From positions 62,001-126,000 of the forward strand of contig NZ_PYGA01000006.1 in assembly GCF_003014485.1 (NCBI RefSeq): a stretch of DNA of 64,000 nucleotides, in the 5' to 3' direction. Below are positions 28,883 through 49,538 of the stretch, one piece after another. The position numbers and the translations under genes are program-made. Source of the stretch: Murinocardiopsis flavida. GTDB lineage: Bacteria; Actinomycetota; Actinomycetes; Streptosporangiales; Streptosporangiaceae. The notes under the pieces were generated by a model, which was not told the DNA's origin, did no database searches, and saw nothing but the letters and a program-made list of their open reading frames with translations. Position 1 is the stretch's first letter. Each line of letters begins with the position of its first letter.

Positions 28883-28973
28883 GCGCACTCACCACCCCTG
28901 ACTCGCCGTACGGGCACCCGGCACGCGCCCCGCGGACGCTGCCGCGGCGCGGTGCCCCCGCGCCGCCCCGGGC

Positions 28974-30338: not shown

Positions 30339-30379
30339 CGGACCCTCCCTCTCGATTCGGGGCTCGCCCCGCGGCCGGC

Positions 30380-31685: not shown

Positions 31686-31693
<8 letters not shown>
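30380..31693 (-). CDS. Sugar ABC transporter substrate-binding lipoprotein
   Basis: A 437-aa lipoprotein with lipobox AASGC (Cys25), a Gly-rich linker, and a family-1 sugar-binding fold: EKVLDAFEKDTGAKVSYES, PDVAILPQPGLLAEYA, KAAHKSIVWYRPDAFDEAGVEAPATWKDL. It resembles alpha-glucoside-binding (AglE-type) proteins, but the ligand cannot be fixed. It overlaps the end of the ATPase gene by 8 bp, so translation is coupled. A small hairpin (CGGGGC-TC-GCCCCG, 30358-30371) follows its stop and may protect the upstream mRNA, raising binding-protein levels over the permeases. Confidence 0.88.
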
Positions 31694-32927
<1,234 letters not shown>

Positions 32928-32980
32928 GATCCGTCTCCCCGCCTCGGCCGCGAAACGCTGAGTGAGCACCGTTCACCACT

Positions 32981-34733: not shown

Positions 34734-37193
34734 ATGCGCAGTCCCCTTGTCCGATTGTTGAGCATCCCCCTGGCGGCCGTCCTCGCCGCCGGATTCGCCG
34801 CAGCACCCCCCGCCACCGCCGAACCGACCAAGGCCGCCGAGTCGGACTTCGACCAGGTGCAGCTCGCCAAAGGCGGCGACAACCTCGGCGAGACCATGGG
34901 CCTCGCCGTCCTCCCCGACACCAGCGTCCTGACCACCTCGCGCAGCGGCGAGATCTACTACACCCGCGAGGCCGGCGACACCCGCCTCGCCGCCACGCTC
35001 GACACCTACACCCACAACGAAGAAGGGGTCCAAGGCATCGCCGTCGACCCCAAGTTCCGCCGCAACAACCACGTCTTCGTCTACTACTCCCCCGCCCTCG
35101 ACACACCCGAGGGCGACGCCCCGGGCTCCGGGACGCCGGAGGACTTCGAGAAGTGGAAGGGCCACAACCGGCTGTCCCGGTTCACCTTCGACCCGGAGAA
35201 GGGGACCCTCGACACCGCCAGCGAGAAGGTCGTCCTGAAGGTCCCCACCAACCGCGGCCTCTGCTGCCACATGGGCGGCCAGATCGACTTCGACAAGCAC
35301 GGCAATCTGTACCTGTCGACCGGCGACAACTCCAACCCGTTCGAGTCCGACGGCTACAGCCCCATCGACGACAGCGCCGACCGCAACCCCGCCTACGACG
35401 CGCGCCGCACCTCGGGCAACACCAACGACCTCCGCGGCAAGCTGCTGCGCATCCGCGTCAAACCCAACGGGACCTACAGCGTCCCCAAGGGCAACCTGTT
35501 CAAGCAAGGCACCGCCAAGACCAAACCGGAGATCTACGCGATGGGGCTGCGCAACCCCTTCCGGTTCCGGGTGGACGAGAAGACCGGCACCGTGTGGATG
35601 GGCGAGTACGGGCCCGACGCCGCCCAGGCCTCCGAACGCGGCCCCTCCGGCAAGGTGTCCTTCCTGCGCATCGCCGGCCCCGGCAACTACGGCTGGCCGT
35701 TCTGCACCGGCGACAAGTTGGAAGCCGACTCCTACGCCGACTGGGACTTCGCCACCGGCACCGCCGGCCCGAAGTTCGACTGCGCCGGCGGCGCCACCAA
35801 CGACTCCCGGCACAACACCGGACTGGAGAAGCTGCCGCCCGCGAAGCCCGGCTGGCTGACCTACGACGGCGCCTCGGTGCCCGAACTCGGCGACGGCAGC
35901 GAGTCCCCCATGGGCGGGCCCGTCTACCACTACGACCCCGACCTGAAGAACGAGACGAAGTTCCCCGAGTCCTACGACGAGAAGGTCTTCCTCTACGAGT
36001 TCGGCCGCCAGTGGATCAAGTCGGTCACCCCCGGCACCGACGGCCCCGAGAAGATCGAGGACTTCCCCTGGGCCGGCTTCCAGCTCATGGACATGGAGTT
36101 CGGCCCGGACGGCTCCCTCTACGTCCTCGACTACGGTGAGACCTGGTTCGGCAAGGACCCCGAGAAGGCCCTGTACCGCATCGACTACTCCCCCGACGAC
36201 AAGACCCCCGTCGCGGCGGTCGACGCCGACAAGACCGCCGCCGGCGAAGGCCCCCTCGAGGTGAAGTTCGACGGCACCGGGTCGGCCGACCCCGACGGCA
36301 CCGAACTCAGCTACGCGTGGGACTTCGACGGCGACGGGACCACCGACTCCACCGAGGCCACCGGCTCGCACACCTACACCGACGACGGCGTGTACCGCGC
36401 CATCCTGCGCGTCACCGACGCCACCGGCAAGACCGGCGCCGCGGGGGTCAACATCACCATCGGCAACACCCCGCCGGAGATCACCTTCGACGCCCCCAAG
36501 CCCGGGCAGTTCATGGACTTCGGCGACACCGTCGGCTTCGACGTCAAGGTCACCGACGCCGAGGACGCCGAGATCGACTGCGAGAAGGTCACGGTCTCCT
36601 TCGCGCTCGGCCACGACAACCACGCCCACCGGATGAACTCCGCCAACGGCTGCACGGGCAGCATCGAGACGGGCCTCGCCGGCGGGCACGACACCAACCA
36701 GGACATCTACGGCACGTTCATCGCCGAGTACACCGACAACGGAGCGGGCGACCTACCGCCGGTCACCGGCAGCAGCGAGATCGAGCTGGCGCCCAAGCAC
36801 CGCCAGGCCGAGTTCTACCACGACTCCCAGGGCGTGGAGGTCGTCGACGCCGACGGCGCCGAAGGCGGCAAGGCCGTTGGCGGCATCGGCGCGGGCGACT
36901 GGATCGCGTTCGACCCGGCGAACTTCGCCGGCACCGACGGCGTGAGCGTCCTCGCCAAGGGCGCGGCGGGCGGCACCGTCGAGGTGCGGTCCGGGGCACC
37001 CGACGGTCCGCTGGTCGCCGGGCCCATCGAGGTCCCCGCGGGCGGCGACTTCGCCGAGACCCCCGCGGCCGACATCACCGACCCCGGCGGATCCCAGGCC
37101 ATGTACCTGGTGTTCGGCGGTGACGGCGGCGACCTCTTCCAGCTCGACGCCCTCACCGTGACCGGGTCGGGCGCCGCCGGAAAGCGCGACTGA
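34734..37193 (+). CDS. Secreted glucose/sorbosone dehydrogenase-like protein with PKD and CBM6-like modules
   Basis: 819 aa. A signal peptide (residues 1-29, ending PATA) shows export. Residues 40-480 form the six-bladed propeller of the glucose/sorbosone dehydrogenase (PQQ sGDH-like) family, with MGLAVLPDTSVLTTSRSGEIYY, EGVQGIAVDPKFRRNNHVFVYYS, GGQIDFDKHGNLYLSTGDN, LRGKLLRIRV and MGLRNPFRFRVDEKTGTVWMGEYGPDA. A PKD domain (about 488-575, YAWDFDGDGTTDS) and a Ca-binding-like segment follow, then a CBM6-like end (685-815, AEFYHDSQGVEVVDADGAEGG, GDWIAFDPANF). It probably oxidises or binds a sugar or carbohydrate outside the cell. It directly precedes an ebo-type cluster on the same strand, separated by a 15-bp hairpin. 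Confidence 0.88.
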   Translation: MRSPLVRLLSIPLAAVLAAGFAAAPPATAEPTKAAESDFDQVQLAKGGDNLGETMGLAVLPDTSVLTTSRSGEIYYTREAGDTRLAATLDTYTHNEEGVQGIAVDPKFRRNNHVFVYYSPALDTPEGDAPGSGTPEDFEKWKGHNRLSRFTFDPEKGTLDTASEKVVLKVPTNRGLCCHMGGQIDFDKHGNLYLSTGDNSNPFESDGYSPIDDSADRNPAYDARRTSGNTNDLRGKLLRIRVKPNGTYSVPKGNLFKQGTAKTKPEIYAMGLRNPFRFRVDEKTGTVWMGEYGPDAAQASERGPSGKVSFLRIAGPGNYGWPFCTGDKLEADSYADWDFATGTAGPKFDCAGGATNDSRHNTGLEKLPPAKPGWLTYDGASVPELGDGSESPMGGPVYHYDPDLKNETKFPESYDEKVFLYEFGRQWIKSVTPGTDGPEKIEDFPWAGFQLMDMEFGPDGSLYVLDYGETWFGKDPEKALYRIDYSPDDKTPVAAVDADKTAAGEGPLEVKFDGTGSADPDGTELSYAWDFDGDGTTDSTEATGSHTYTDDGVYRAILRVTDATGKTGAAGVNITIGNTPPEITFDAPKPGQFMDFGDTVGFDVKVTDAEDAEIDCEKVTVSFALGHDNHAHRMNSANGCTGSIETGLAGGHDTNQDIYGTFIAEYTDNGAGDLPPVTGSSEIELAPKHRQAEFYHDSQGVEVVDADGAEGGKAVGGIGAGDWIAFDPANFAGTDGVSVLAKGAAGGTVEVRSGAPDGPLVAGPIEVPAGGDFAETPAADITDPGGSQAMYLVFGGDGGDLFQLDALTVTGSGAAGKRD

Positions 37194-37197
37194 TCCA

Positions 37198-37231
37198 GGC
37201 GGGGCCGGGGCGCACACGCCCCGGCCCCGCC
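37198..37231 (+). terminator. Hairpin between the secreted dehydrogenase and the ebo-type cluster
   Basis: Perfect 15-bp arms (37198-37212 GGCGGGGCCGGGGCG and 37217-37231) with loop CACA, 4 bp after the dehydrogenase stop and about 30 bp before the next start codon. There is no U-tract, so it may be a partial terminator or an mRNA-stability element that adjusts expression between the secreted enzyme and the downstream cluster. Confidence 0.6.
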
Positions 37232-37262
37232 GCTGCGGGCCGCCCCGACGACAAGGAGCACG

Positions 37263-38441
37263 ATGCACACGCCCCCACACCCGCGCACCGGCGTCTGGCT
37301 GATCGGCGCCCGCGGATCCGTCGCCACCACGGCGATCGCCGGCGCCGCGGCGCTGCGCACCGGCGCCCCCGCCACCGCGATGGTCACCGAGGCGCCCGGC
37401 TTCCCCGCCGACGGGCTCCCCCGCACCGCCGACCTCGTCTTCGGCGGCCACGACATCGCCCACACCACCCTGGCCAAACGCGCCGAGCAGCTCGCCGCCG
37501 CCGGGGTCCTGCCCGCCGGGCTGCCCGACCGGGTCCGCGCCGAACTCGACGCCGCCGACGCCCGAATCCGCCCCGGCGTCCCCCAAGGCCACGGCAGCGA
37601 GCACCCCGCCGACGGCCTGCGCCGCCTCGCCGCCGACATCGCCGCGTTCCGCACCGAGGAGCGGCTCGACCGCGTCGTCGTCGTCAACGTCGCCGACACC
37701 GAGGCCCCCGCCCCCGCCCGCGCCGAGACCGAGGGCCTCGACGCGCTCACCGCCGCCCTGGAGTCCGGCGCGCACGTGCTGCCCGCCAGCTCCCGCTACG
37801 CCCACGCCGCGTTCACCGCCGGATGCGCCTATGTCAACTTCACGCCCTCGGCCGGGGCCCGACCCCCCGCCATCGCCGAACTCGCCGCCCGCACCCGGCT
37901 GCCCTACGCCGGGGACGACGGCAAGACCGGCGAGACCCTGCTCAAGTCCGTCCTCGCCCCCATGTTCGGCCACCGCCACCTGCGGGTCCGCTCCTGGGCC
38001 GGCACCAACCTGCTCGGCGGCGGCGACGGCGCCAACCTCGCCGACCCCGCCGTGGCCCGCAGCAAGCTCGACTCCAAGAGCCGCCTCGTCGGGGAGCTCC
38101 TCGGCTACCCGGTCGACGACCACCTGCACATCGACCACGTCGCCGACCTGGCCGAACGCAAGGTCGCCTGGGACCACGTGACCTTCGACGGGTTCCTCGG
38201 CGCGCAGATGAGCCTGCAATTCACCTGGCAGGGCTACGACTCCGCGCTCGCCGCCCCCCTCGTCCTCGACCTCGCCCGCCTCATGGCGCGCGCCCACGAG
38301 ACCGGGCGCAGCGGGCCGGTCACCGAACTCGCGTTCTTCTTCAAGGACCCGCTCGACTGCGCGGTCCACGACCTGCCCGGCCAGCACGCCATGCTGCTCG
38401 CGTTCGCCGAGCGCCTGCGCCGCGCGGGCGGGCCCGCGTGA
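37263..38441 (+). CDS. Myo-inositol-1-phosphate (1L-myo-inositol-3-phosphate) synthase family
   Basis: A 392-aa protein from ATG 37263 with AAGGAG upstream. N-terminal Rossmann motif GVWLIGARGSVATTAIAG; central catalytic region GDDGKTGETLLKSVLAPMF (about 218-236), SWAGTNLLGGGDGANL, SKLDSKSRL and HIDHVADLAERKVAWDHVTFDGF. These are the inositol-phosphate synthase signatures (NAD-dependent cyclisation of glucose 6-phosphate). It lies in the position where a sugar-phosphate cyclase (EboD, dehydroquinate-synthase-like) stands in several ebo clusters. I infer that it supplies a cyclitol phosphate to the cluster product; a housekeeping inositol synthase elsewhere in the genome is likely. Confidence 0.85.
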   Translation: MHTPPHPRTGVWLIGARGSVATTAIAGAAALRTGAPATAMVTEAPGFPADGLPRTADLVFGGHDIAHTTLAKRAEQLAAAGVLPAGLPDRVRAELDAADARIRPGVPQGHGSEHPADGLRRLAADIAAFRTEERLDRVVVVNVADTEAPAPARAETEGLDALTAALESGAHVLPASSRYAHAAFTAGCAYVNFTPSAGARPPAIAELAARTRLPYAGDDGKTGETLLKSVLAPMFGHRHLRVRSWAGTNLLGGGDGANLADPAVARSKLDSKSRLVGELLGYPVDDHLHIDHVADLAERKVAWDHVTFDGFLGAQMSLQFTWQGYDSALAAPLVLDLARLMARAHETGRSGPVTELAFFFKDPLDCAVHDLPGQHAMLLAFAERLRRAGGPA

Positions 38442-39313
38442 ACGGCGCACGGCTGCGCGCCCTCGCCGAACTGGTGCGCGCCCCCGCCGCGCTGTCGGTG
38501 CCCGGCGACGCCCTCGCCGGGGCGGCGGCGGCCGGGTACCCGCAGGGCCGCCGCACCGCGTTCGCGTGCGCCGCATCGGTCTGCCTGTACTGGGCCGGGA
38601 TGGCCCTCAACGACTACGCCGACCGCGACCTCGACGCCGTGGAGCGGCCCGAGCGGCCCATCCCCTCGGGCCGGGTCTCCCCCGGCGCCGCACTCGGCAC
38701 CGCCGCGGCCCTCACCGGGGCCGGACTGGTCTGCGCGGCGGCGGCGCACCCGCGCGCGCTCACCGTCGCCGTCCCCCTCGCCGCGACGGCGTGGAGCTAC
38801 GACCTGTGGCTCAAACCCACCCCCGCCGGGCCCTACGCCATGGGGCTGGCCCGCGGCCTGGACGTGCTCCTCGGCGCCGCCCCCGGCGGCGCGCGCGCCG
38901 CGCTGCCCTCGGCCGCCGCGATGGCCGCCCACACCGTCAACGTCACCCGGCTCAGCCGCGACGAGGTGCACGGCACCACGCCCGCCCGCGCCGGTGCCGC
39001 CGCGGCGGCCACGGCCGCGGTCGCCGCCGCCGTCGCCGCCCGCGCCGGGACCGGGGCGGGGCCGCGCACCGACCGGGCCGCCGCCGCGGCGCTCGCCGCC
39101 GGCTACGGCGCCCTCGCCCTCACCCCGCAGCTCGCCGCCGCCCGCGACCCCTCCGCCGCCCGCGTCCGCGCGGCCGTCGGCGGCGGCATCGTCGCCATGG
39201 TCCCCCTCCAGGCGGCGCTGACCAGCCTCGGCGGATCCCCGCGACGCGGCGCGGCGCTCGCGGCCCTCGTCCCCGCCGCCCGCGCGCTGACCAAGCGGAT
39301 CGCCGCCACCTGA
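38438..39313 (+). CDS. eboC: UbiA-family prenyltransferase, EboC-like
   Basis: A 291-aa polytopic membrane protein from GTG 38438, overlapping the preceding stop (GTGA). The aspartate-rich motif NDYADRDLDAVERPERPIPSGR (about 63-84) is the UbiA first Mg/diphosphate site; VTRLSRDEVHG near 170 takes the position of the second. Eight or nine Ala-rich transmembrane segments are predicted. UbiA enzymes transfer a polyprenyl chain to an acceptor; in ebo clusters this protein (EboC) is proposed to make a lipid carrier or membrane anchor, but the acceptor is unproven. Confidence 0.85.
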   Translation: MNGARLRALAELVRAPAALSVPGDALAGAAAAGYPQGRRTAFACAASVCLYWAGMALNDYADRDLDAVERPERPIPSGRVSPGAALGTAAALTGAGLVCAAAAHPRALTVAVPLAATAWSYDLWLKPTPAGPYAMGLARGLDVLLGAAPGGARAALPSAAAMAAHTVNVTRLSRDEVHGTTPARAGAAAAATAAVAAAVAARAGTGAGPRTDRAAAAALAAGYGALALTPQLAAARDPSAARVRAAVGGGIVAMVPLQAALTSLGGSPRRGAALAALVPAARALTKRIAAT

Positions 39314-39354
39314 CCGCCGCCGCCCACCGCCGCCCGGCCCCGGAGGAGACGCAC

Positions 39355-40257
39355 GTGCCCACCACCCCCGACCACCCCGGCGCCCGCACCCCCCGCGCGG
39401 CACCCCTGCGCATCGGCTACGGCAGCAACGGGTTCACCGACCACCGCCTGCACGAGGCCCTGACCGTCCTCGCCGACCTCGGCTACGACGGGGTGGCCGT
39501 CACCCCCGACACCGGCCACCTGGACCCCTACGAACCCGGCCTGCCCGTGCGGGTCGACGCCCTCGCCGCCCACGCCGACCGGCTCGGCCTCGCCCTCACG
39601 GTCGAGACCGGCGCCCGCTACGTCATCGACCCGCACCGCAAGCACGCCCCCACCCTCCTCGACGCCGACCCCGCCCCCCGCCTGGACTACCTGCGGCGCT
39701 GCCTGCGCATCGCCGCCGGGCTCGGCGCGCCCACCATGGCGCTGTGGTCGGGGGCGGCACCCCCCGGCCTCGCCCCCGCCGCCGTGTGGGACCGGCTGGT
39801 GCGCGCGACAGAGGAGCTGCTCGACGACGCCGCCCGGCACGGGGTGGCACTCGGCTTCGAACCCGAACCCGGCATGTTCGTCGACACCATCGCCGGCTAC
39901 GAGCGGCTGCGCGACCTGCTGGGCGCGCCCGCCGGGTTCGGCATCTGCCTGGACCTCGGCCACTGCGTGTGCACCGAGTCGGCGGCCGTGCCCGACTGCG
40001 TGGCGCGCGTCGCGGCCGACCTCGTCGCCGTGCAGATCGAGGACATGCGCCGCGGCGTCCACGAGCACCGCGAGTTCGGCACGGGCGACATCGACTTCCC
40101 CCCGGTCCTGGCGGCGCTGGCCGCCGCCGGCTACACCGGGCTGGTCGGCATCGAACTGCCCCGCCACGCGCACGCCGCCCCCGCCGTCGCGGCCCGCTCC
40201 CTCGCGTTCCTGCGCCGCGCCGAACACGCCGCGCGCGTCCCCGAGGAGGCCCGGTGA
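39355..40257 (+). CDS. Sugar-phosphate isomerase/epimerase-like TIM-barrel protein
   Basis: A 300-aa protein from GTG 39355 with GGAGGAG at 39342-39348. Xylose-isomerase-like (AP endonuclease 2) fold: GYGSNGFTDHRLHEALTVLADLGYDGVAVTP, LGFEPEPGMFVDTI (metal-ligand Glu at about 175-177), GICLDLGHCVC, AVQIEDMRRGVHEHREFGTGDIDFPPVLAAL and GIELPRHAH supply the expected Glu, Asp, His and Glu metal ligands. It may isomerise or epimerise a cyclitol or sugar phosphate made by the neighbour. Coupled to the next gene by a GTGA overlap. Confidence 0.85.
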   Translation: MPTTPDHPGARTPRAAPLRIGYGSNGFTDHRLHEALTVLADLGYDGVAVTPDTGHLDPYEPGLPVRVDALAAHADRLGLALTVETGARYVIDPHRKHAPTLLDADPAPRLDYLRRCLRIAAGLGAPTMALWSGAAPPGLAPAAVWDRLVRATEELLDDAARHGVALGFEPEPGMFVDTIAGYERLRDLLGAPAGFGICLDLGHCVCTESAAVPDCVARVAADLVAVQIEDMRRGVHEHREFGTGDIDFPPVLAALAAAGYTGLVGIELPRHAHAAPAVAARSLAFLRRAEHAARVPEEAR

Positions 40258-40940
40258 CCGGCGCCGCGCTCGACGGCGCCCTCACCCCGGCCGGGCGGGA
40301 CTGGCTCGACGCCGCGCTCGCCCGAATCGCCGCGGCGCCCGACGCGATCGACGCCCTGTTCCCCGCGGCGGCCCGCCACTGCGGCCGCGCCGCGCTGCCC
40401 GGCGGCGGCACCGTCGACGAGCACGCCCGGCTGCGCCTGCTGCGGGCGCTGCCGCGCGACGGGCTCGCCGCACGCACCACGGCCCTGTACCGCCACGGCG
40501 ACGCCGCGGAGAAGCGCGCCGTCCTGCGCGCCCTGCCCGCACTGGCGGACGACCTGGGCGACGCAGGCACCGACCTCGTCCTCGACGCGCTGCGCGGCAA
40601 CGACACCCGCCTCATCGCCGCGGCGCTGAACCCCTACGCCGCGCACCGCCTCGGCGACCGCGACTACCGCCACGCCATCCTCAAGGCCCTGTTCAGCGGG
40701 CTCGACCCCGGCCCCGACGCGGGCCTCGACCGGCGCTACGACGCCGAACTCGCCCGGATGGTCACCGACTTCGCCCGCGAACGCGTCGCCGCGGGCCGCG
40801 ACGTGCCCGGCGCCGCCCTCCGCCTCCTCGCCCGCGCGGACGCGCCTCCCGCGTGGCTCGCCGCGGAACTCGCGGCCGCCGACCCGCACCGCAGGGACGC
40901 GGCCCGGCGCGCCCGCGACGCGCTCGACCGCTCCCGGTGA
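40254..40940 (+). CDS. eboA: EboA-family protein
   Basis: A 228-aa soluble, all-helical protein from GTG 40254, coupled to the TIM-barrel gene (GTGA). The family hallmark is the central helical-repeat region LRLLRALPRDGLAARTTALYRHGDAAEKRAVLRALP followed by LIAAALNPYAAHRLGDRDYRHAILKALFSGLD, which matches EboA of ebo metabolite-traffic clusters. EboA has no known catalytic site and is thought to act as a scaffold or chaperone. The C-terminus is Ala/Arg-rich. Confidence 0.85.
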   Translation: MTGAALDGALTPAGRDWLDAALARIAAAPDAIDALFPAAARHCGRAALPGGGTVDEHARLRLLRALPRDGLAARTTALYRHGDAAEKRAVLRALPALADDLGDAGTDLVLDALRGNDTRLIAAALNPYAAHRLGDRDYRHAILKALFSGLDPGPDAGLDRRYDAELARMVTDFARERVAAGRDVPGAALRLLARADAPPAWLAAELAAADPHRRDAARRARDALDRSR

Positions 40941-40977
40941 CCGCGGCCACCGGACGACACCCACGAGAGGCCAGCCG

Positions 40978-41841
40978 ATGCGCATCTTCGACCCGCACAT
41001 CCACATGACGTCCCGGACCACCGACGACTACGCCGCCATGGCCGCCGCCGGGGTGCGGGCCCTCGTCGAGCCCGCGTTCTGGCTCGGCCAGCCGCGCACC
41101 TCCGTCGGCAGCTTCACCGACTACTTCGACTCCCTCATCGGCTGGGAGCCGCACCGCGCCGCCCAGTTCGGGATCGCCCACCACGCCACCATCGCGCTCA
41201 ACCCCAAAGAGGCCAACGACCCCCGCTGCCGCGACGTCCTCGACGTCCTCCCCCGCTACCTCGCCAAGGACCGGGTCGTCGCCGTCGGCGAGGTCGGCTA
41301 CGACTCCATGACCCCCGAGGAGGACGCGGTGTTCGCCCGGCAGCTCCAGCTCGCCGCGGAGCACGACCTGCCCGTCCTCGTGCACACCCCCCACCGCGAC
41401 AAGATCGGCGGCACCCTGCGCACCCTCGACGTGATCCGCGAGTCGGGGATCGCCCCCGAACGGGTCCTGATCGACCACCTCAACGAGGTCACAGTCGAGC
41501 ACGTCGCCGACACCGGGCACTGGATGGGGTTCTCCATCTACCCCGACACCAAGATGGACCCCCGCCGCATGGTGCTGCTGCTCCAGCGGTACGGCACCGG
41601 GCGGGTCCTGGTGAACTCCGCCGCCGACTGGGGCCGCAGCGACCCGCTGACCACCCGCCGCACCGGCGACGCCATGGCGGCGGCCGGGTTCGGCCCCGAC
41701 GCCGTCGACACCGTCCTGTGGGCCAACCCCGTCGCGTTCTACGGCCAGAGCGGCCGCCTCGACCTGGACCCCGCGCCCGCCGAACCCCAGTTCGCCGGCA
41801 ACACCATCCAGCGCGGCGCGCCCGCATCCCCCGAAAGGTGA
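40978..41841 (+). CDS. eboB: TatD-family metal-dependent hydrolase, EboB-like
   Basis: A 287-aa amidohydrolase-superfamily protein from ATG 40978. The N-terminal DPHIHM carries His7 and His9; VGEVGYDS gives a Glu ligand, LVHTPHRD and IDHLNE give His ligands, and NSAADWGRSDPL supplies the C-terminal Asp. These are the TatD metal ligands. TatD proteins hydrolyse phosphodiesters or other bonds; in ebo clusters the substrate is unknown. 37 bp separate it from eboA and 4 bp from the EboE gene. Confidence 0.87.
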   Translation: MRIFDPHIHMTSRTTDDYAAMAAAGVRALVEPAFWLGQPRTSVGSFTDYFDSLIGWEPHRAAQFGIAHHATIALNPKEANDPRCRDVLDVLPRYLAKDRVVAVGEVGYDSMTPEEDAVFARQLQLAAEHDLPVLVHTPHRDKIGGTLRTLDVIRESGIAPERVLIDHLNEVTVEHVADTGHWMGFSIYPDTKMDPRRMVLLLQRYGTGRVLVNSAADWGRSDPLTTRRTGDAMAAAGFGPDAVDTVLWANPVAFYGQSGRLDLDPAPAEPQFAGNTIQRGAPASPER

Positions 41842-41845
41842 CCCC

Positions 41846-43036
41846 ATGCGCCTGACCCACCCCGACGGCACCACCGTCCACCTCGCCTACTGCGCCAACG
41901 CCCACCCCGCCGCCGCCCTCGGCGAGGTCCGCGCCCGGCTGGCCGACCACGCCGCCGCCGTCCGCCGCGAACTCGGCGCCGACCGCCTCGGCATCGGCCT
42001 GTGGCTGCCGCGCGCCGTCGCCACCCGGCTGCGCACCATCCCCGCCGACCTCGCCGCGCTGCGCGCCGACCTCGACGACAACGGCCTGGAGGTCGTCACC
42101 CTCAACGGCTTCCCCTACCAGGGCTTCGGCGACGACGTCGTGAAGACCCGCGTCTACGTGCCCGACTGGGCCCAGCGCGCCCGGCTGGAGTACACCCTCG
42201 ACCTCGCCTGGCTCCTCGCCGCGCTGCTGCCCGCCGACATCGCCCGCGGCAGCATCTCCACCCTCCCCCTCGGCTGGCACGCCTGGTGGAGCCCCGAGGA
42301 CGGCGCCCGCGCCGGGCGGAACCTGTCCCGCCTCGCCGACGGCCTGGCCACCGTCGAGGCCGAGACCGGCAAGGAGATCCGGATCGGGTTCGAACCCGAA
42401 CCCGGCTGCGTCGTGGAGACCACCGCCGACGCCGCGACGGTGCTGCCCCGGATCCTGTCCTCTGCCGTGCACCCCGCCCACCGGCACCGCTTCGGCGTCT
42501 GCCTCGACGCCTGCCACCTGGCGGTGGGCTTCGAGGACCCCGCCGCGGCCCTCGCCACCCTCGCGGCCGCCGACCTGCCCGTCGTCAAGGCCCAGGCGTC
42601 CGCCGCACTGCACTGCGACACACCGGCCGACCCGGCGCACCTGGCCGCGCTGGAGCGCTACGCCGAACCGCGGTACCTGCACCAGACCCGCGCGCGCCAC
42701 CCCGACGGCACCCTGCACGCGAGCGACGACCTCCCTCTCGCGCTGGACGACGCGCCCAGGGACCGCCCCTGGCGGGTCCACTTCCACATGCCGCTGCACG
42801 CCGACGCCGAACCCCCGCTGCGCACCACCCGCCCCGAGCTCACCGACACCCTGCAAAGGCTGCTCGGCGGCCCCACCGCGCTCACCGACCACGTCGAGGT
42901 CGAGACCTACACCTGGTGGATCCTGCCCGACGGCTCCGGGCTCGGCACCGACCGGCTCGTCGCCGGCCTCGCCGCCGAACTCGACTGGGCCCGCGGCACC
43001 CTCGCCGCCCTCGGCTGCAAGGAGGCGGCCCGATGA
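41846..43036 (+). CDS. eboE: EboE-family TIM-barrel metabolite-traffic protein
   Basis: A 396-aa protein from ATG 41846, just 4 bp after eboB, with AAGG upstream. Opening HLAYCANAHPA and the regions LGIGLWLPRAVATRL, VTLNGFPYQGFGDDVVKTRVYVPDW and IGFEPEPGCVVETTADA are the EboE pattern, a xylose-isomerase-like barrel longer than the 300-aa barrel encoded upstream. Metal ligands appear as Glu in FEPEPG, Asp/His in GVCLDACHLAVGFED and HFHMPLHAD. EboE is predicted to process or escort the cluster metabolite. Confidence 0.87.
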   Translation: MRLTHPDGTTVHLAYCANAHPAAALGEVRARLADHAAAVRRELGADRLGIGLWLPRAVATRLRTIPADLAALRADLDDNGLEVVTLNGFPYQGFGDDVVKTRVYVPDWAQRARLEYTLDLAWLLAALLPADIARGSISTLPLGWHAWWSPEDGARAGRNLSRLADGLATVEAETGKEIRIGFEPEPGCVVETTADAATVLPRILSSAVHPAHRHRFGVCLDACHLAVGFEDPAAALATLAAADLPVVKAQASAALHCDTPADPAHLAALERYAEPRYLHQTRARHPDGTLHASDDLPLALDDAPRDRPWRVHFHMPLHADAEPPLRTTRPELTDTLQRLLGGPTALTDHVEVETYTWWILPDGSGLGTDRLVAGLAAELDWARGTLAALGCKEAAR

Positions 43037-44415
43037 CCGCCGCCCGCCCCACACCGCTGCTCGTCCTCGACGTCGTCGGACTCACCCCCCGGCTCCTCGC
43101 CCACATGCCGCGCCTCGCCGCCATGGCCGCCCCCGGGTTCACCGCCAGCCTCGACCCCGTCCTGCCCGCCGTGACCTGCACCGTGCAGTCCACCCTGCTC
43201 ACCGGGGAGCACCCCAGCGGCCACGGCATCGTCGGCAACGGCTGGTACTTCCGCGACCTCGGCGAGGTCCACCTGTGGCGGCAGCACAACCGCCTCGTCG
43301 GCGGCGAGAAGGTGTGGCAGGCCGCGCGGCGCGCCTTCGGCGACTACACCGTCGCCAACGTGTGCTGGTGGTACGCCATGGGCGCCGACACCGACTGGAC
43401 CGTGACCCCGCGGCCCGTCTACTACGCCGACGGCCGCAAGGAACCCGACTGCTACACCCGCCCGCCGAGCCTGCACGGCGAACTCACCGCCGCCCTCGGC
43501 GGCTTCCCCCTCTTCACCTACTGGGGGCCCACCGCGGGGATCACGTCGTCCCGGTGGATCGCCGGCGCCACCCGCCGCATCATGCGCACCAAGCGCCCCG
43601 ACCTGACACTGGCCTACCTGCCGCACCTCGACTACGACCTCCAGCGGTACGGCCCCGGCGACCCGCGCGCCGCGCGCGCCGCCGCGGAACTCGACGGGGT
43701 CATCGCCCCGCTGCTCGCCACGGCCGCCGACCAGGGCGCCACCGTCGTCGCCCTCTCCGAGTACGGCATCACCGACGCCGACCACCCCGTCGACGTCAAC
43801 CGCGCCCTGCGCCACGCCGGGCTCCTGGAGGTCTACACCCAGGACGGCATGGAGTACCTCGACCCCTGGGCGTCGCGCGCGTTCGCGGTCGCCGACCACC
43901 AGGTCGCCCACATCTACGTCGCCGACCCCGCCGACCTGCCCGCCGCGCGCGCCGCGCTGGAGGGCCTCACCGGGGTCGCGGAGGTCCTCGACGACGCGGG
44001 CAAGGCCACCCACGGGCTCGACCACGAACGCTCCGGCGAACTCGTCGCCATCGCGGCACCCCGCTCCTGGTTCACCTACTACTACTGGCTCGACGACGCC
44101 CGCGCCCCCGACTTCGCCCCGATGGTGGAGATCCACCGCAAACCCGGCTACGACCCGGCGGAGCTCGCCATGGACCCCGAGGACCGCACCGCCAAGGCGC
44201 GCGCCGCACTGGCGCTGGCCCGCAAGAAGACCGGGATGCGGTACCGCATGGACGTGGTCCCCACCCACGGCCGCGGCGTCCGCGGCAGCCACGGCCGCCT
44301 GCCCGCCGACCCCGCCGACGGCCCTGTCCTGCTCTGCTCCGACCCCGCCCCCGCCAAGGACGCCTTCCACGCCACCGAGGTGAAGTCCCTCCTCCTCCGC
44401 CTCGCCGGAGCCTGA
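43033..44415 (+). CDS. eboF: Type I phosphodiesterase/nucleotide pyrophosphatase-like protein, EboF-like
   Basis: A 460-aa alkaline-phosphatase-superfamily protein from ATG 43033, coupled to eboE (ATGA). Zinc-site Asp13 (VLDVVGL), the nucleophile region LPAVTCTVQSTLLTGEHPSGHGI aligns with the NPP motif so that Thr48 is the nucleophile, LPHLDYDLQRYGP and SEYGITDADHPVD provide further metal ligands, and HGRGVRGSHG the final one. It may cleave a phosphodiester or pyrophosphate in the lipid-linked or nucleotide-linked product. No signal peptide. Last gene of the cluster. Confidence 0.87.
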   Translation: MTAARPTPLLVLDVVGLTPRLLAHMPRLAAMAAPGFTASLDPVLPAVTCTVQSTLLTGEHPSGHGIVGNGWYFRDLGEVHLWRQHNRLVGGEKVWQAARRAFGDYTVANVCWWYAMGADTDWTVTPRPVYYADGRKEPDCYTRPPSLHGELTAALGGFPLFTYWGPTAGITSSRWIAGATRRIMRTKRPDLTLAYLPHLDYDLQRYGPGDPRAARAAAELDGVIAPLLATAADQGATVVALSEYGITDADHPVDVNRALRHAGLLEVYTQDGMEYLDPWASRAFAVADHQVAHIYVADPADLPAARAALEGLTGVAEVLDDAGKATHGLDHERSGELVAIAAPRSWFTYYYWLDDARAPDFAPMVEIHRKPGYDPAELAMDPEDRTAKARAALALARKKTGMRYRMDVVPTHGRGVRGSHGRLPADPADGPVLLCSDPAPAKDAFHATEVKSLLLRLAGA

Positions 44416-44428
44416 CCCGGCCCCGCCG

Positions 44429-44474
44429 CCGCCCGGCGGGCGGGCCCCGACGTCGGGGCCCGCCCGCCGGGCGG
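44429..44474. terminator. 46-bp perfect palindrome between convergent operons
   Basis: Left arm 44429-44451 and right arm 44452-44474 are exact inverse complements with no loop bases (centre GGCCCCGAC-GTCGGGGCC). It lies between the EboF-like gene and the convergent ABC permease gene. It has no U-tract; its size and position fit a bidirectional terminator or a 3'-end protecting structure. Confidence 0.7.
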
Positions 44475-44493
44475 ATCGGCGTTCGGCCGGCGG

Positions 44494-45336
44494 TCAGCCC
44501 TTGACGGCTCCGGCGGTGAGGCCGGCGACCACGGACCGGCGGAACACCAGGGCCAGGATCGCGATGGGCGCCGTCACCGCGACCGCCGCCGCGAACAGGG
44601 TGCCGTAGGGCACCTCGAACACCGTGCCGAACAGCGCCATGCCCACCGGGATCGTGCGGAACCCCTCCTGGGAGTTGAAGGTCAGCGCCATGAGGAACTC
44701 CATCCACGTCGCGGTGAACGTGAACACGCCCGCCGTGAACAGGCCCGGCCGCACCTGCGGCAGGATCACCTGGAGCACCGTGCGCACCGGCGAGCAGCCG
44801 TCGATGCTGGCGGCGTCCTCCAGGCCGCGCGGCACGCTCAGCATGTAGTTGCGCAGGATCCAGATCGCGAACGGCAGGTTGAACGCCACATACGGGATGA
44901 TCAGCGCCGGGTAGGAGTTCAGCAGGCCCAGCTGGCGCTGCATCAGATACAGCGGGACCAGCACCGCGATCGCCGGGTACACGGAGATGATCAGCAGCGC
45001 GACCATCACCGGGCCGCGCCCGCGCATCGGCGTGCGCGCCAGCGCGTACCCCGCGAACGTCGCCAGCGACAGCACGATGACCGTCGCCACCGCGCACACC
45101 AGCACGCTGTTCAGCATGTAGGTGGCGAACCCGCCGGCGAACGCGTCGCCGTAGTTCTGCCCCGTCGGCGCCTTCGGCACCGCGCCCGGCGGCACCGCGC
45201 TGATCTCCTCGGGCGGCTTGAACGAGTTCATCACCAGCCAGTACAGCGGCATCGCGGTGAGCACCACCATCACCAGCGCACCGCCGTTGACCGGGTTGAC
45301 GACCCGGCGCCAACCGCGCCTCTCGCGAGTCCTCAC
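44494..45336 (-). CDS. Alpha-glucoside/trehalose-type ABC transporter permease (MalG type)
   Basis: 280 aa from GTG 45334-45336, with GGGAGGAAG upstream and a GTGA overlap with the preceding permease stop. Six transmembrane segments, EAA motif EDAASIDGCSPVRTVLQVILPQV (about 182-204), C-terminal VAGLTAGAVKG. It completes the importer with the 45333 permease and 46337 binding protein. No ATPase in the operon; MsiK-type ATPase at 26608 is the likely partner. Confidence 0.9.
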   Translation of the reverse strand: MRTRERRGWRRVVNPVNGGALVMVVLTAMPLYWLVMNSFKPPEEISAVPPGAVPKAPTGQNYGDAFAGGFATYMLNSVLVCAVATVIVLSLATFAGYALARTPMRGRGPVMVALLIISVYPAIAVLVPLYLMQRQLGLLNSYPALIIPYVAFNLPFAIWILRNYMLSVPRGLEDAASIDGCSPVRTVLQVILPQVRPGLFTAGVFTFTATWMEFLMALTFNSQEGFRTIPVGMALFGTVFEVPYGTLFAAAVAVTAPIAILALVFRRSVVAGLTAGAVKG

Positions 45337-46340
45337 GACACTTCCTCCCGTCCCACCTGGGCCTTGAACGAACGCAGGAACAGCAGGCACGCGCCCGTGA
45401 CGAGCAGCCCGGTGGCGGTCGCGACCGCGGCACCGGGGCCGATGTTGAGGTCCTGGAACAGGACCTTGTACCCCATGACCGCCAGCGACTGCGTCGCCGT
45501 GCCCGGCCCGCCGCCGGTGAGCACGAACGGCAGGTCGAACAGCCCGAACGCCTGGAGGATGCGGAACAGGATCGCCACCGCGATGGTCGCCCGCAGCTGC
45601 GGCAGCGTGACCTGCCAGAACGTCTTCCAGGCGTTGGCGCCGTCGACCTCGGCCGCCTCGTAGACGTCCTGCGGGAGCATGACCAGCCCCGCCAGGACGA
45701 TGATCGCGACGAACGGGGTGGTCTTCCAGATGTCGGCCACCATCATGGCGGTGATCGCCGGCACCGGCTCGCCCAGGATCAGCGGGGTCGACCCGGTGAT
45801 CCCCTCCAGCGCCCACGTGGCGACACCGAAGCTGGAGTTGTAGATGTAGCCCCAGAGCTGCGCCGACACCACGGTGATCATCGACCAGGGGATGAGCATC
45901 AGCGCCATCATCCAGCCGCGCCCCGTGGTCAGCCGCTCCATCACCAGCGCCGCCAGCGTGCCCAGCACCAGCTCCACGGCCACCGTGATGACCGTGTAGA
46001 GGACGGTGAAGCCCAGCGCGTAGTAGAAGTCCTGCGAGGCGAACAGCGCCACGTAGTTGTCGAAGGTCATCGACTCCACGACGAAGCCGTCGTAGCCGAT
46101 GCGCACCCGCGAGAAGCTCAGCACCAGCGAGTACATGATCGGGAAGATCGTGATGAGCCCGATGACGACCAGCGACGGCGCGGTGAACAGCCAGCCGATC
46201 CTGGCCATGCGCCGCTCCATGGCGTCGCGCGGTCCGCTGAACGCCGGGCGGCGCGCGCCGCCCCGCCCCTTGTCGTGCGCCCCGCCGCGCTGCGGCGGGA
46301 CCGTCGCCGCCGCAGTGGGGGCCTTCTCGGTGGAACTCAC
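45333..46340 (-). CDS. Alpha-glucoside/trehalose-type ABC transporter permease (MalF type)
   Basis: 335 aa from GTG 46338-46340, overlapping the binding-protein stop by 4 bp. A 45-residue charged N-terminus leads into six transmembrane segments. EAA motif EAAEVDGANAWKTFWQVTLPQL (about 232-253). The normal-size periplasmic loop contrasts with the enlarged loop in the permease at 28974. Trehalose/maltose-type (ThuF/SugA-like) by overall pattern. Confidence 0.9.
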   Translation of the reverse strand: MSSTEKAPTAAATVPPQRGGAHDKGRGGARRPAFSGPRDAMERRMARIGWLFTAPSLVVIGLITIFPIMYSLVLSFSRVRIGYDGFVVESMTFDNYVALFASQDFYYALGFTVLYTVITVAVELVLGTLAALVMERLTTGRGWMMALMLIPWSMITVVSAQLWGYIYNSSFGVATWALEGITGSTPLILGEPVPAITAMMVADIWKTTPFVAIIVLAGLVMLPQDVYEAAEVDGANAWKTFWQVTLPQLRATIAVAILFRILQAFGLFDLPFVLTGGGPGTATQSLAVMGYKVLFQDLNIGPGAAVATATGLLVTGACLLFLRSFKAQVGREEVS

Positions 46341-47671
46341 AGGGCAGCCCCCTCATGGGCGGTCCGCATCCCGGCCGCCATCTCGGCGACGGCGGCGTCG
46401 GTGTCGCCGCGCCCGCCCGACACCACCAGCGGGTTGGCGTTGGTGTACACGGCCTTGCTGATCTGCGGGTAGCGCGGCGACTGCGAGGGCCGCACCACGA
46501 ACTGCGCGTCGGCCGACAACCCGAAGGTCGGGTTGTCCTGCCCCGTGACCTCCGGGTCCGCCAGCACCGACGACAGCGGCGGCGTGTACGGCGAAGTGGT
46601 CGCCATGATCGTCTGCGCCTCCTCCTGCGCGACCCAGCGGGCGAAGGCGACCGACGCCCCCAGGTTGCGGGTGTGCGGGTTGACGTAGTTGTGCCAGCCG
46701 CCCAGCGTCGACAGGCCGCGGCGCTCTCCGCCGTCGAAGCGCGGCCGCAGGACCGCGCCGACCTTGCCCGACACCGCGGAGTCGGCGCCGTTGGCGGCGC
46801 CCCAGGCGTAGGACCAGTTGCGCAGGAACGCGGCCTGCCCGCTGGAGAACGCGGTCATCGACTGCTCCTCGGCGAAGGTGCCGACCCCCGCGGGGCTGAC
46901 CCCGCTGGAGACCAGGCCGGCCATGAACTCCATGGCGCGCCGGCCCGCCGCGGAGTCGACCGTGACCTCCGTTGCGGCCTCGTTCATCAGCGAGCCCCCC
47001 GCGTCGGCGAGGAACTCGGTGAAGTTGCAGGTGATCGGCTCGGCCGAGGCGCCCTGCCAGACGAAGCCGTAGCGGACGTCCCCCGCCTTCGTGAGCTTCA
47101 GGGCGATGTCGCTGACCTGCTCCCAGGTCTCCGGCGGGTCGAAACCGTGCTTGTCGAGCAGGTCCTTGCGGTAGTAGAGGAACGAGATGTCCACGTACAT
47201 CGGGAACGCGTACGCGCTGCCCTCGTAGCTCACCGCCGTCGAGACGGGGTCGGGGTAGCCCGACCAGAACTCCTTCTCCCCCGCGACCTCGCCCAGCGGC
47301 TGCGCCAGCGAGTTGTAGGCGAACTGCGCCGGCCAGGTGCAGTCGCCGAGGAACACGTCGGGCGAAGTGGCCCCGCTGGCGATCTGGGTGGTGAGGGTCG
47401 TGCGGCGCACGTCCGTGGTCGGGGGGACGTCGACCAGGTTGACCGTGATGGTGGGGAAGCGGTTCTGGAACGCGGTCACGAGGGTGCGCCGCAGGTCCTT
47501 GCCGTCGTTGTCGGCCAGCACCTGCGAGATCCAGTCGATGGTCACCGGACGGTCGGGGATCTCGGCGGCGAGCGCGTCGCGCGCCTGCCCTGTTCCGGAC
47601 GAGCATCCCGCGAGCGACGCGGCCGCGAGCGCGGCTCCCCCACCGAGTAGCGCTCTGCGCGAGAGGTCCAT
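46337..47671 (-). CDS. ABC transporter substrate-binding lipoprotein, alpha-glucoside/trehalose type
   Basis: 444 aa from ATG 47669-47671. The leader MDLSRRALLGGG has a twin-arginine-like RR and ends in the lipobox LAGC (Cys23), so export may be Tat- or Sec-dependent. Mature features: VTAFQNRFPTITVNLVDVPPTTDVRRTTLTTQIASGATSPDVFLGDCTWPAQFA and AFPMYVDISFLYYRKDLLDKHGF, the layout of trehalose/maltose-binding proteins (ThuE/LpqY-like). It is divergent from a GH13 alpha-glucosidase, so an alpha-glucoside such as trehalose, maltose or isomaltose is likely. Confidence 0.9.
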   Translation of the reverse strand: MDLSRRALLGGGAALAAASLAGCSSGTGQARDALAAEIPDRPVTIDWISQVLADNDGKDLRRTLVTAFQNRFPTITVNLVDVPPTTDVRRTTLTTQIASGATSPDVFLGDCTWPAQFAYNSLAQPLGEVAGEKEFWSGYPDPVSTAVSYEGSAYAFPMYVDISFLYYRKDLLDKHGFDPPETWEQVSDIALKLTKAGDVRYGFVWQGASAEPITCNFTEFLADAGGSLMNEAATEVTVDSAAGRRAMEFMAGLVSSGVSPAGVGTFAEEQSMTAFSSGQAAFLRNWSYAWGAANGADSAVSGKVGAVLRPRFDGGERRGLSTLGGWHNYVNPHTRNLGASVAFARWVAQEEAQTIMATTSPYTPPLSSVLADPEVTGQDNPTFGLSADAQFVVRPSQSPRYPQISKAVYTNANPLVVSGGRGDTDAAVAEMAAGMRTAHEGAAL

Positions 47672-47723: not shown

Positions 47724-47804
47724 CTAGTAGTGTGATGTGGTCAACACTCATTCGACAATGCTCAGCTCCGCGACCACGTTTTGCCCGTCTCCGAGATGAG
47801 ATCG

Positions 47805-47869
47805 TTGCCAATCGGACGACTTCCTGCGTACTATCCGGGCGGAAATGACCCCGTGATCGGACGACTCCC
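47805..47869 (+). promoter_or_regulatory. Alpha-glucosidase promoter with a direct-repeat operator candidate
   Basis: TTGCCA (47805-47810), 18-bp spacer, TACTAT (47829-47834) form a good promoter for the 47880 gene. The 14-bp word ATCGGACGACTTCC (47811-47824) fills the spacer, and ATCGGACGACTCCC (47856-47869) recurs 45 bp downstream, just before the ribosome-binding site, with one mismatch. Two copies one to the promoter and one to the leader suggest a regulator binding site; the regulator is not adjacent. Confidence 0.55.
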
Positions 47870-47879
47870 GAGGGAGAGC

Positions 47880-49538
47880 ATGGCTGACACCGGCTCCGCA
47901 CAGGACCACTGGTGGCGCGACGCCGTCATCTACCAGATCTACCCGCGCAGCTTCGGCGACGCCGACGGCGACGGCATCGGCGACATCCCCGGCATCACCG
48001 ACCGGATCGACCACCTCGCGGCGCTGGGCGTCGACGCCGTCTGGCTGTCGCCGTTCTACCCCTCGCCCCTCGCCGACGGCGGCTACGACGTCGCCGACTT
48101 CCGCGGCGTCGACCCCCTCCTCGGCACCCTCGGCGACTTCGACGCGCTGGTCGCCGCCGCGCACGCCCGCGGCATCCGGGTGATCATCGACATCGTCCCC
48201 AACCACACCTCCGAAGAGCACCCCTGGTTCGTCGAGGCGCTGAACTCCCCTCCGGGCTCCGCCGCGCGCGAGCGCTACGTCTTCCGCGACGGCAAGGGCC
48301 CCGACGGCGCCGAGCCGCCCAGCGGCTGGCAGTCCCGCTTCGGCGGGCCCACCTGGACCCGGCTGCCCGACGGCCAGTGGTACCTGCATCTGTTCGCCAG
48401 GGAGCAGCCCGACCTCAACTGGGCCAACCCCGAGGTGCGCGCGGAGTTCCTCGACATCCTCCGGTTCTGGAGCGACCGCGGCGTCGACGGCTTCCGTATC
48501 GACGTCGCCGCCGCCCTCGCGAAGGACCTCTCCGAGCCGCTGCGCGAGATCGTGCAGACCCCCGACGGCAGCGGGCTGGACGAGATGCGGGCGAACCCCG
48601 ATCACCCCTTCCTCGACCGCCCGGAGATCCACGACATCTACCGCGAGTGGCGCCGGGTGTTCGACTCCTACGACCCGCCGCGGGTCGCGGTCGCCGAGGC
48701 GTGGCTGCCCAGCCACCGCCAGCTCCACTACGTGCGCGCCGACGAACTCCACCAGGCGTTCAACTTCGAGTTCCTGCGCTGCCCCTGGGACGCCGACGCG
48801 CTGCGCGACGTGATCACCACCAGCGTCGACGACGCGTCGTCGGTGGGCACGGTCGCCACCTGGGTGCGCTCCAACCACGACGTGGTGCGGACACCCTCGG
48901 CGCTCGGCCTGCCCCGCGGCACCGACCTCGCCGCGTGGCTCATGACCGACGGCACCGAGCCGCCCCTCGACCTCGAACGGGGGCTGCGCCGGGCGCGGGC
49001 CATCGCCCTGCTCCAGTTCGGCCTGCCCGGGTCCAACTACGTCTACCAGGGCGAGGAACTCGGCCTGCCCGAGGTCGCCGACCTACCCCCCGAGGTCCTC
49101 CAGGACCCCAAGTGGGAGCGGACCGGGCACACGGTCAAGGGCCGCGACGGCTGCCGCGTGCCGCTGCCGTGGGACACGCAGGGGCCCTCGCTGGGCTTCG
49201 GCGCGGCCCTCGGGTGGCTCCCGCAGCCCGCCGGCTGGGGCGGCCTCTCCGTCGCGGCGCAGACCGGCGACCCCGACTCCACCCTGGAGCTGTTCCGCGG
49301 CGCGATCCGGCTGCGGCGCACGCTGATCGGCGCGGGCGCCGGCGAGTCCTTCGCCTGGGACGCCGACACCGACAAGGGCGACCTGCTCGCGTTCACCCGC
49401 GGGGAGCACTGGCTGGTGCTCACCAACACCGGGGCGGAACCGGTGGCGCTGCCGGACGGCGAGGTGCTGCTCGCCAGCGGCCCGCTCGACAACGGGGCGC
49501 TGCCGGGCGACACGTCCGTGTGGCTGCGCCGTCCATGA
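47880..49538 (+). CDS. Glycoside hydrolase family 13 alpha-glucosidase (oligo-1,6-glucosidase-like)
   Basis: 552 aa from ATG 47880 with GGGAGAG upstream; longer in-frame starts are rejected because they would lie in the promoter. GH13 motifs: [14 protein letters not shown] (about 104-117), nucleophile Asp208 in [10 protein letters not shown], acid/base Glu273 in AVAEAW, and NHD (332-334). No signal peptide, so it acts in the cytoplasm on oligosaccharides brought in by the divergent ABC transporter, releasing glucose from alpha-1,4 or alpha-1,6 linked or trehalose-like substrates. The last 70 residues form the C-terminal beta domain. Confidence 0.9.

Follow-up and report, generated by a model that had tools for sequence, protein, structure and literature searches.

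Which ring-forming enzyme feeds an ebo operon that lacks EboD? The question is raised by a seven-gene unit on the plus strand of a Murinocardiopsis flavida contig (NZ_PYGA01000006.1), at positions 37263-44415 of the 64,000-nucleotide stretch of DNA analysed here, which is called the window. The published ebo operon consists of six genes, eboABCDEF, from Bacteroidota, Cyanobacteria and eustigmatophyte plastids, and its EboD is a sugar-phosphate cyclase related to 3-dehydroquinate synthase (Yurchenko et al. 2016, PMC5133447). EboD is reported to be missing from a few published clusters. No EboD was found in the ebo locus of the window, and its place is taken by a MIPS-type cyclase (MIPS, inositol-phosphate synthase). 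We put at about one in two the probability that this is an ebo variant in which EboD was replaced by a dedicated MIPS together with XylI, a xylose-isomerase-like protein, and which makes a prenyl-cyclitol for a secreted enzyme.

The first-pass annotation, made from the letters of the window, had described seven same-strand genes with overlaps or short gaps. The reading frames and translations of the window bear this out, as all seven frames are open and the successive junctions measure -4, +41, -4, +37, +4 and -4 nt, so that neighbours either overlap by 4 nt or lie 4 to 41 nt apart. Family scans with curated models and Pfam agree with the gene names it had given. Its classification of the cluster as ebo-type likewise stands, with EboA and EboE over their curated cut-offs and homologues of its EboB and EboF present in an EboD-type locus. 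The EboA (134.6 bits) and EboE (421 bits) profiles gave the expected matches; for EboC, a UbiA is present that reached 146.8 bits with NF035940, under the cut-off of 250. The first gene calls for a correction: MIPS is not among the six published ebo genes and occupies the position expected for EboD, a cyclase of another family. The annotation had also overlooked that the UbiA belongs by score to another curated family than EboC, that XylI follows MIPS and not EboD, and that the gene directly upstream of the unit (34734-37193) is part of the picture. When the gene order was compared in relatives, as had been suggested, 46 of the 52 MIPS-type loci showed the identical seven-gene order and all 52 were encoded on a single strand; the operon is therefore not a chance arrangement.

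EboE loci came from five sources: 19 of 396 genomes of the phylum to which the window belongs; 98 of 394 genomes of its class, 90 of them over the cut-off, with a part of this set fetched; 14 of 41 genomes of near relatives; other phyla (the best 80 of at least 582 named loci); and plasmids (48 records, three of which enter the count). Altogether 161 loci were examined. A full EboE is present in 142 of them; outside this set are 17 loci with a short EboE and two (L045 and L185) with an EboE under the threshold. MIPS is found in 52 of the 142 loci, EboD in 77, both in none and neither in 13. Two unrelated chemistries thus serve the ring-forming step of ebo. The 13 cyclase-less loci, some of which are short or cut stretches, comprise four loci of an inosose-type operon described below together with L028, L054, L073, L074, L077, L106, L115, L131 and L162. 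Antisense open reading frames returned as "conserved families" by the crude gene calling were disregarded.

No MIPS-type locus was seen among the best 80 of at least 582 named loci from other phyla or in two proteobacterial plasmid loci, and one EboD-type locus, L031, was seen in the window's phylum. The identity of the L031 EboD rests on its matches in other phyla (roughly 390-463 bits at full length) and on loci annotated as 3-dehydroquinate synthase. A survey of 34 named genomes with non-actinobacterial loci, 30 of which have EboD in the locus, gave no strong ebo-type MIPS, while nine of the 34 contain a MIPS of 221-259 bits. In the class sample of 394 genomes, strong MIPS occurs in 84; all 84 have EboE, and in 80 the two lie within 8 kb (Fisher p ~3e-79 for the co-occurrence, with relatedness ignored). 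Furthermore, in a midpoint-rooted EboE tree of 61 rows, 17 of them flagged for unusual letter composition, cyclase type forms the root split with a support of 100, and L031 falls on the EboD side. As this split matches cyclase type, the swap was essentially one event. An isoprenoid-cyclitol product was already proposed for canonical ebo in 2016 (PMC5133447), and the two-chemistry swap supports that proposal without proving it.

The operon MIPS itself scored 157.3 bits with PF07994 (cut-off 25) and 104.6 bits with PF01658 (cut-off 27). With TIGR03450, the mycothiol-type INO1 model, it gave 50.3 bits, under the equivalog cut-off of 638. A housekeeping INO1 with a TIGR03450 score of 667.2 bits lies elsewhere in the same genome. 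A single MIPS in the genome had been considered and was rejected, as PF07994 alone missed this INO1 and TIGR03450 detects it; the C. glutamicum MIPS likewise escaped PF07994 and was detected by TIGR03450. The closest solved sequence is the inositol-phosphate synthase 1u1i (212 bits). Its active-site residues K274, K278, K306, K367, N255 and D332, of which the four lysines are catalytic, aligned with the same residues in the operon MIPS. All 52 ebo-type MIPS proteins share N249, K268, K272, K300, D326 and K361. When 33 MIPS proteins were placed in a tree, the 21 of the ebo type were set apart by a 97/95 branch from 10 others (Bacteroidota, Acidobacteria, the YcaO-cluster type described below and L194), and the genome's own INO1 and L200 form long branches of unsure placement. 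A single in-frame TGA within the MIPS match was noticed in four genomes (G633, G500, G470 and G511), which reflects either a broken gene or an assembly error. The window's genome also has two 3-dehydroquinate synthase matches, one over the cut-off and one below, both on contigs other than that of the operon.

Two further proteins move with the cyclase. Counted from 150 bits upwards, XylI accompanies the cyclase in 50 of 52 MIPS-type loci and in 0 of 77 EboD-type loci. In four loci XylI and EboA share one frame, a count that may overstate fusions as frames were taken from stop to stop. An actinobacterial EboA fused to a xylose-isomerase-like domain has been mentioned with data not shown (PMC5133447). 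Away from any ebo genes, MIPS and XylI are again paired in a YcaO / Gfo-Idh / glycosyltransferase / PIG-L cluster, in all four loci fetched (L190-L193). Its families were named on L191, and the frames are conserved in L190, L192 and L193. The L191 cluster encodes MIPS, an HD protein, a methyltransferase, a Gfo/Idh protein, a metallo-beta-lactamase fold, YcaO and XylI, further a group 4 glycosyltransferase (weak MshA match) and PIG-L; by its gene content it looks like a pathway building on an inositol-type ring. Four genomes hold it (G554, G635, G419 and G473), and G554 and G635 have MIPS-type ebo as well. In G419 the YcaO cluster contains MIPS and XylI, and the genome's own ebo locus (L131) is without both genes. 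This single case is the best hint that MIPS and XylI form one functional step which can be supplied in trans.

The second protein is the UbiA-superfamily prenyltransferase, which reached 358.5 bits with the SCO3242 model NF045897 (cut-off 260) and was found in 50 of 52 MIPS-type loci, being absent in L153 and L160. Its first Asp-rich motif (N58, D59, D62 and D66) is invariant in 120 proteins. Three positions beyond an invariant Arg, residue 142 separates the two types: all 50 MIPS-type proteins have Asp there, and all 72 EboD-type proteins have Asn, Val or Ser. At residue 17 the MIPS type shows Ala or Ser, the EboD type Asn. These two residues were relied on instead of by-type hidden Markov models (HMMs), which had been trained on much the same loci. 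Nostoc EboC is described with Asp145 together with Arg142 (PMC6282210). Residue 142 is tentatively equated with this Asp145; the published protein has Asp at the position, where the EboD-type rows have mostly Asn. A polyprenyl synthase gene lies near 4 of 140 loci and was accordingly rejected as a general operon member. It adjoins the unit on the same strand in two of them, overlapping the EboF stop in L039 (11759-12823) and lying upstream of MIPS in L027, and there it is possibly the source of the prenyl donor.

The acceptor of this UbiA might also be an aromatic or heteroaromatic metabolite, with the MIPS or EboD ring used otherwise or aromatised first, and the product would then be a meroterpenoid. 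EboC relatives from Maribacter, Zobellia and Algoriphagus do farnesylate 8-hydroxyquinoline-2-carboxylate in vitro, but in these assays the substrates were given to crude membranes, and phenols and catechols failed (PMC9235831). Several Streptomyces plasmid ebo loci adjoin non-ribosomal peptide synthetase (NRPS) or polyketide genes, whereas the ten neighbours scanned beside the window's operon include no lookalike of aromatic biosynthesis. Moreover, the two types are told apart by residue 142 in all proteins compared. A meroterpenoid therefore appears unlikely to us.

What would a prenyl-cyclitol be made for? The gene upstream of the ebo unit encodes a glucose/sorbosone-dehydrogenase-like (GSDH-like) protein whose N-terminus, judged by eye, resembles a signal peptide. 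A search of the fetched stretches, mostly ~19 kb long, gave a homologue in 29 MIPS-type loci out of 52 and in 3 EboD-type loci out of 77. In the class sample of 394 genomes, with four candidates scored per genome, 77 of 84 ebo-MIPS genomes and 6 of 310 others have a GSDH match at E<=1e-60 (p ~9e-66, again with relatedness ignored). This sample was used for the count because the ebo genomes of the copy-number comparison had been chosen partly for a known GSDH neighbour. Among the six others, three have only a short EboE (G665, G673 and G727), G419 has its ebo locus without MIPS, and G542 and G584 have no EboE match. In the window's own genome there is one GSDH match at E<=1e-40, and it is the gene upstream of the operon.

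In some loci a gene of the ScyD/ScyE family takes the place of the GSDH gene, as it does in the scytonemin clusters of cyanobacteria. Of the seven ebo genomes without GSDH, G712 and G651 carry such a gene directly beside MIPS and G400 has a pair on another contig, and no ScyD/ScyE-family match above 200 bits was found in G150, G352, G532 and G703. Among 22 ebo-free genomes, one (G008) exceeds 200 bits, and four (G038, G050, G074 and G096) reach the family cut-off by summed pieces. G599, G641 and G444 combine ebo, GSDH and strong ScyE-family genes, the latter beside ebo in G599 only. On three Streptomyces plasmids a ScyD/ScyE-family gene lies directly upstream of MIPS, and on a fourth it lies ~13 kb downstream of the ebo unit; four of the plasmid proteins or their kin (L206, L207, L159 and L161) pass NF033206. 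The neighbourhoods of ebo on these plasmids contain NRPS genes, type II polyketide genes, or type III polyketide and multicopper oxidase genes. Three cyanobacterial loci of the EboD type (L058, L067 and L081) likewise have ScyD/ScyE-family similarity (50-116 bits) in the neighbourhood of ebo. As the ScyE and GSDH partner families are shared, it can be argued that the two ebo types have a common purpose.

According to PMC9218822, GSDH enzymes depend on pyrroloquinoline quinone (PQQ). PqqC, which takes part in making PQQ, was found in 5 of 25 ebo genomes tested, a count that leaves out G048 (not an ebo genome), G777 and G778, and the window's genome is among the 20 without it. The predicted-secreted dehydrogenases may therefore use something else, and the scarcity of PqqC would be compatible with another co-factor, PQQ import or propellers that work without one. 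On these associations ebo would be a membrane prenyl-cyclitol system for extracytoplasmic enzymes, with a putative product and a putative transport role. A wider proposal, in which ebo with either cyclase makes a membrane-anchored prenyl-cyclitol that equips or feeds secreted propeller-type oxidoreductases (of the GSDH type here, of the ScyE type in scytonemin and Streptomyces polyketide clusters) and so represents a new chemical class of lipid co-factor or carrier, is speculative, and we give it little credence.

The same comparisons bear on whether the two cyclases make the same ring. MIPS may follow the same biosynthetic logic and yet form a ring that differs from EboD's, for example a five-membered one, so that different products would arise through shared downstream enzymes. 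MIPS retains phosphate, unlike the superfamily of EboD. EboD is placed near sedoheptulose-7-phosphate-using enzymes, and that superfamily loses the phosphate (PMC5133447). The comparison with solved sequences showed that 6k96, a five-membered-cyclitol-phosphate synthase, is also a MIPS homologue, and UbiA residues 17 and 142 differ by cyclase type. On the other hand, EboA (or a substitute), EboB, EboE and EboF are common to both types, and the ScyE and GSDH partner families occur with both. On balance different rings are conceivable but somewhat doubtful.

The shared proteins were compared in turn. The window's EboA passes the domain model NF035938 (cut-off 50) and gave 54.3 bits with the full-length model NF035937 (cut-off 320). 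Its AlphaFold model is helical with a predicted local distance difference test (pLDDT) score of 93.7; a fold search returned HEAT/ARM-like matches only, with Z up to 9.4 versus a guide of ~13 for helical models and none at E<=0.001, and no solved sequence matched up to E=1. Judging from the predicted fold, EboA is possibly a scaffold. The window's EboB and EboF matched those of the EboD-type locus L031 at 221 and 484 bits, and queries from L031 and the window jointly match EboB and EboF in most other-phyla loci. EboE exceeds the NF035939 cut-off of 250 and is 55% identical to the EboE of named Streptomyces plasmids; it is the second of two PF01261-type TIM barrels in the unit. The first match of its profile among solved sequences is the inosose isomerase IolI (1i60, E=1.8e-4). 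The AlphaFold model (pLDDT 91.7) has the ketose-3-epimerase / xylose-isomerase fold with Z ~22-23 to many structures, as also found by Foldseek, and E183, D221, H224, H312, H314 and E353 are invariant in 142 proteins. We infer that EboE acts on a ring ketone.

EboE also occurs apart from the ebo unit. In five genomes (G452, G428, G537, G653 and G614) it was over the cut-off in operons with no other ebo gene in the fetched stretch. Operons of this inosose-degradation-like kind contain it in L133, L135, L137, L144, L185 and L201; in L185 it is in pieces. All of them have an alcohol dehydrogenase, whose best NCBIfam match, tested on L185, is scyllo-inosose 3-dehydrogenase (185 bits, under the cut-off of 450); all except L135 have an M24-family protein and a 2-oxoacid dehydrogenase E1 subunit, and a sugar ABC transporter lies beside several. 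His279 of EboE is Ser in the four proteins of these operons that were compared and His in the other 138. A short EboE-like protein of ~330 aa without other ebo genes is found in the window's family (L169-L184 and L186). These copies were rejected as second clusters, as disA, mutY and a Clp gene lie near them in most cases; three of them nest within the MIPS-type part of the EboE tree. On a Streptomyces sp. NBC_01244 plasmid (L208, 19995-21173), an eboE without other annotated ebo genes adjoins type II polyketide genes resembling those of L207, which has a whole seven-gene ebo unit there.

The presence of EboE in an inosose-degradation-like operon is one argument that the window's operon serves carbohydrate or cyclitol catabolism, with the TIM barrels, hydrolases and GSDH processing an imported sugar and the MIPS and UbiA activities being divergent. 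Sugar ABC transporters flanking both sides in the window would agree with this, as would ThuA, levoglucosan-dehydrogenase-like Gfo/Idh, sugar-binding proteins and a second PF01261 gene near some loci. However, the known direction of MIPS is biosynthetic, a UbiA prenyltransferase accompanies nearly every MIPS-type locus (50 of 52), and the catabolic neighbours vary by locus whereas the seven ebo genes hardly vary. We therefore regard a catabolic role as quite improbable.

For the favoured prenyl-cyclitol variant, the following route can be proposed. First, MIPS, whose fold and residues are as observed above, would cyclise glucose-6-phosphate or a close sugar phosphate to an inositol-phosphate-type cyclitol. 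XylI and EboE would then act on the ketone (inosose) form of the ring by isomerisation, epimerisation or dehydration, and EboF or EboB would take off the phosphate or another group, the order of these steps being putative. The SCO3242-type UbiA, which bears the prenyltransferase motif, would couple the cyclitol to a prenyl chain in the membrane. The helical EboA may gather the soluble enzymes, together or at UbiA. Finally, the prenyl-cyclitol, as a membrane carrier or co-factor, might bring a small molecule outside to a secreted enzyme; on the basis of co-occurrence, the clients would be the upstream-encoded GSDH-type protein here and ScyD/ScyE-family proteins elsewhere.

Several observations weigh against this route. 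With 6k96 among its homologues, MIPS may form a five-membered ring. Since the swap was nearly a single event, the covariation of UbiA and XylI with MIPS may reflect shared descent instead of chemistry. G473 carries MIPS and XylI without an EboE match over the cut-off, and in the EboD-type plasmid locus L189 the third gene downstream of eboE's UbiA is annotated as a sugar phosphate isomerase/epimerase, which did not score as XylI, so that such enzymes are not entirely restricted to the MIPS type. At the site of the second Asp-rich motif of other UbiA enzymes, the ebo UbiA has one conserved Glu, and polyprenyl synthase genes are scarce around ebo. Several ebo genomes have multiple GSDH copies (up to 5), not all beside ebo. 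The flanking sugar transporters and levoglucosan-dehydrogenase-like genes would also fit a catabolic setting. In addition, the only assayed EboC relatives farnesylated quinolines, and cyclitols do not figure among the substrates in that account (PMC9235831).

The features of the region, which belongs to a genome of 7.38 Mb with a GC content of ~70-79%, are collected in Table 1. No T-tailed terminator and no sigma-70 consensus was found around the unit, both hairpins being without a T-run. Carbohydrate ABC-transporter genes lie on both sides of the region (window 26608-32969 and 44494-47671), and an alpha-amylase-family gene is at 47781-49538. Near the ebo unit of L039, L131, L132 and L164, a levoglucosan-dehydrogenase-like Gfo/Idh protein, a sugar-binding protein and a second PF01261 protein are encoded.

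Table 1. Features of the ebo region in window coordinates.
Feature	Position	Strand	Basis
Predicted-secreted GSDH-like protein with PKD and CBM6, 819 aa	34734..37193	+	Pfam
Hairpin between GSDH gene and ebo unit	37205..37240 (limits approximate)	+	Fold of 37194-37262: -47.4 kcal/mol, z -3.73
MIPS-type cyclase, operon-dedicated second copy, in EboD's stead	37263..38441	+	PF07994/PF01658
UbiA-superfamily membrane prenyltransferase, SCO3242 family, EboC counterpart	38438..39313	+	NF045897 over cut-off
XylI, xylose-isomerase-like TIM barrel, GTG start at 39355	39355..40257	+	PF01261 134.8 bits
EboA, all-helical (predicted)	40254..40940	+	NF035938 134.6 bits
EboB, TatD-like metal-dependent hydrolase	40978..41841	+	PF01026 52 bits, cut-off 27
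EboE, TIM barrel, ketose-3-epimerase / xylose-isomerase fold	41846..43036	+	NF035939 421 bits
EboF, type I phosphodiesterase / alkaline-phosphatase-like hydrolase	43033..44415	+	PF01663 215.7 bits
Strong hairpin 3' of unit	44423..44485 (limits approximate)	+	Fold of 44416-44500: -80.7 kcal/mol, z -6.50

Compared with canonical ebo, the window's unit shares EboA, EboB, EboE, EboF, a UbiA, a sugar-phosphate-cyclising enzyme and tight clustering; it differs in having MIPS for EboD, an additional XylI, a UbiA that scores as SCO3242 family and the order MIPS-UbiA-XylI-A-B-E-F. According to PMC6282210 an ebo phenotype is reported in two organisms only, Nostoc and a Pseudomonas, and a need for ebo in metabolite translocation has been demonstrated for Nostoc only (Klicki et al. 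2018): ebo mutants retain the scytonemin monomer in the cytoplasm, and ScyE is located in the periplasm. The Nostoc punctiforme ebo is like the window's in cluster type, and ScyD/ScyE-family genes also adjoin MIPS-type clusters, on Streptomyces plasmids and in two genomes of the window's family. Unlike there, the neighbour in the window is of the GSDH type; of the scytonemin genes, ScyD and ScyE were those sought. In S. coelicolor, the calcium-dependent-antibiotic (CDA) cluster lists SCO3242 as a "putative transferase" and SCO3243 as a "myo-inositol phosphate synthase" (PMC3610822), and another MIPS is InoA, SCO3899 (PMC7581861). The resemblance lies in a transferase and a MIPS with neighbouring numbers, NF045897 being named after SCO3242; our guess is that SCO3237-SCO3241 complete an S. 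coelicolor ebo cluster.

The lipid-carrier idea for ebo has also been published (PMC6282210). The prenylated cyclitol and the carrier that the first-pass annotation had put forward are thus already in the literature, and it had re-derived both. The word "inositol" is absent from the main text of PMC5133447. Within open-access full text, a scope that does not extend to subscription journals and preprints, no description was found of the replacement of EboD by MIPS, of the pairing of MIPS with XylI or of the association with GSDH.

The operon is present in about a fifth of the class sample (84/394), in actinomycetes including Streptomyces. That precisely the ring-forming enzyme was exchanged for a non-homologous one argues, independently, for a central ring-shaped sugar product. 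For actinomycetes, the swap suggests a concrete substrate and a concrete intermediate, glucose-6-phosphate and inositol phosphate, and the link with GSDH provides a candidate client of the ebo system.

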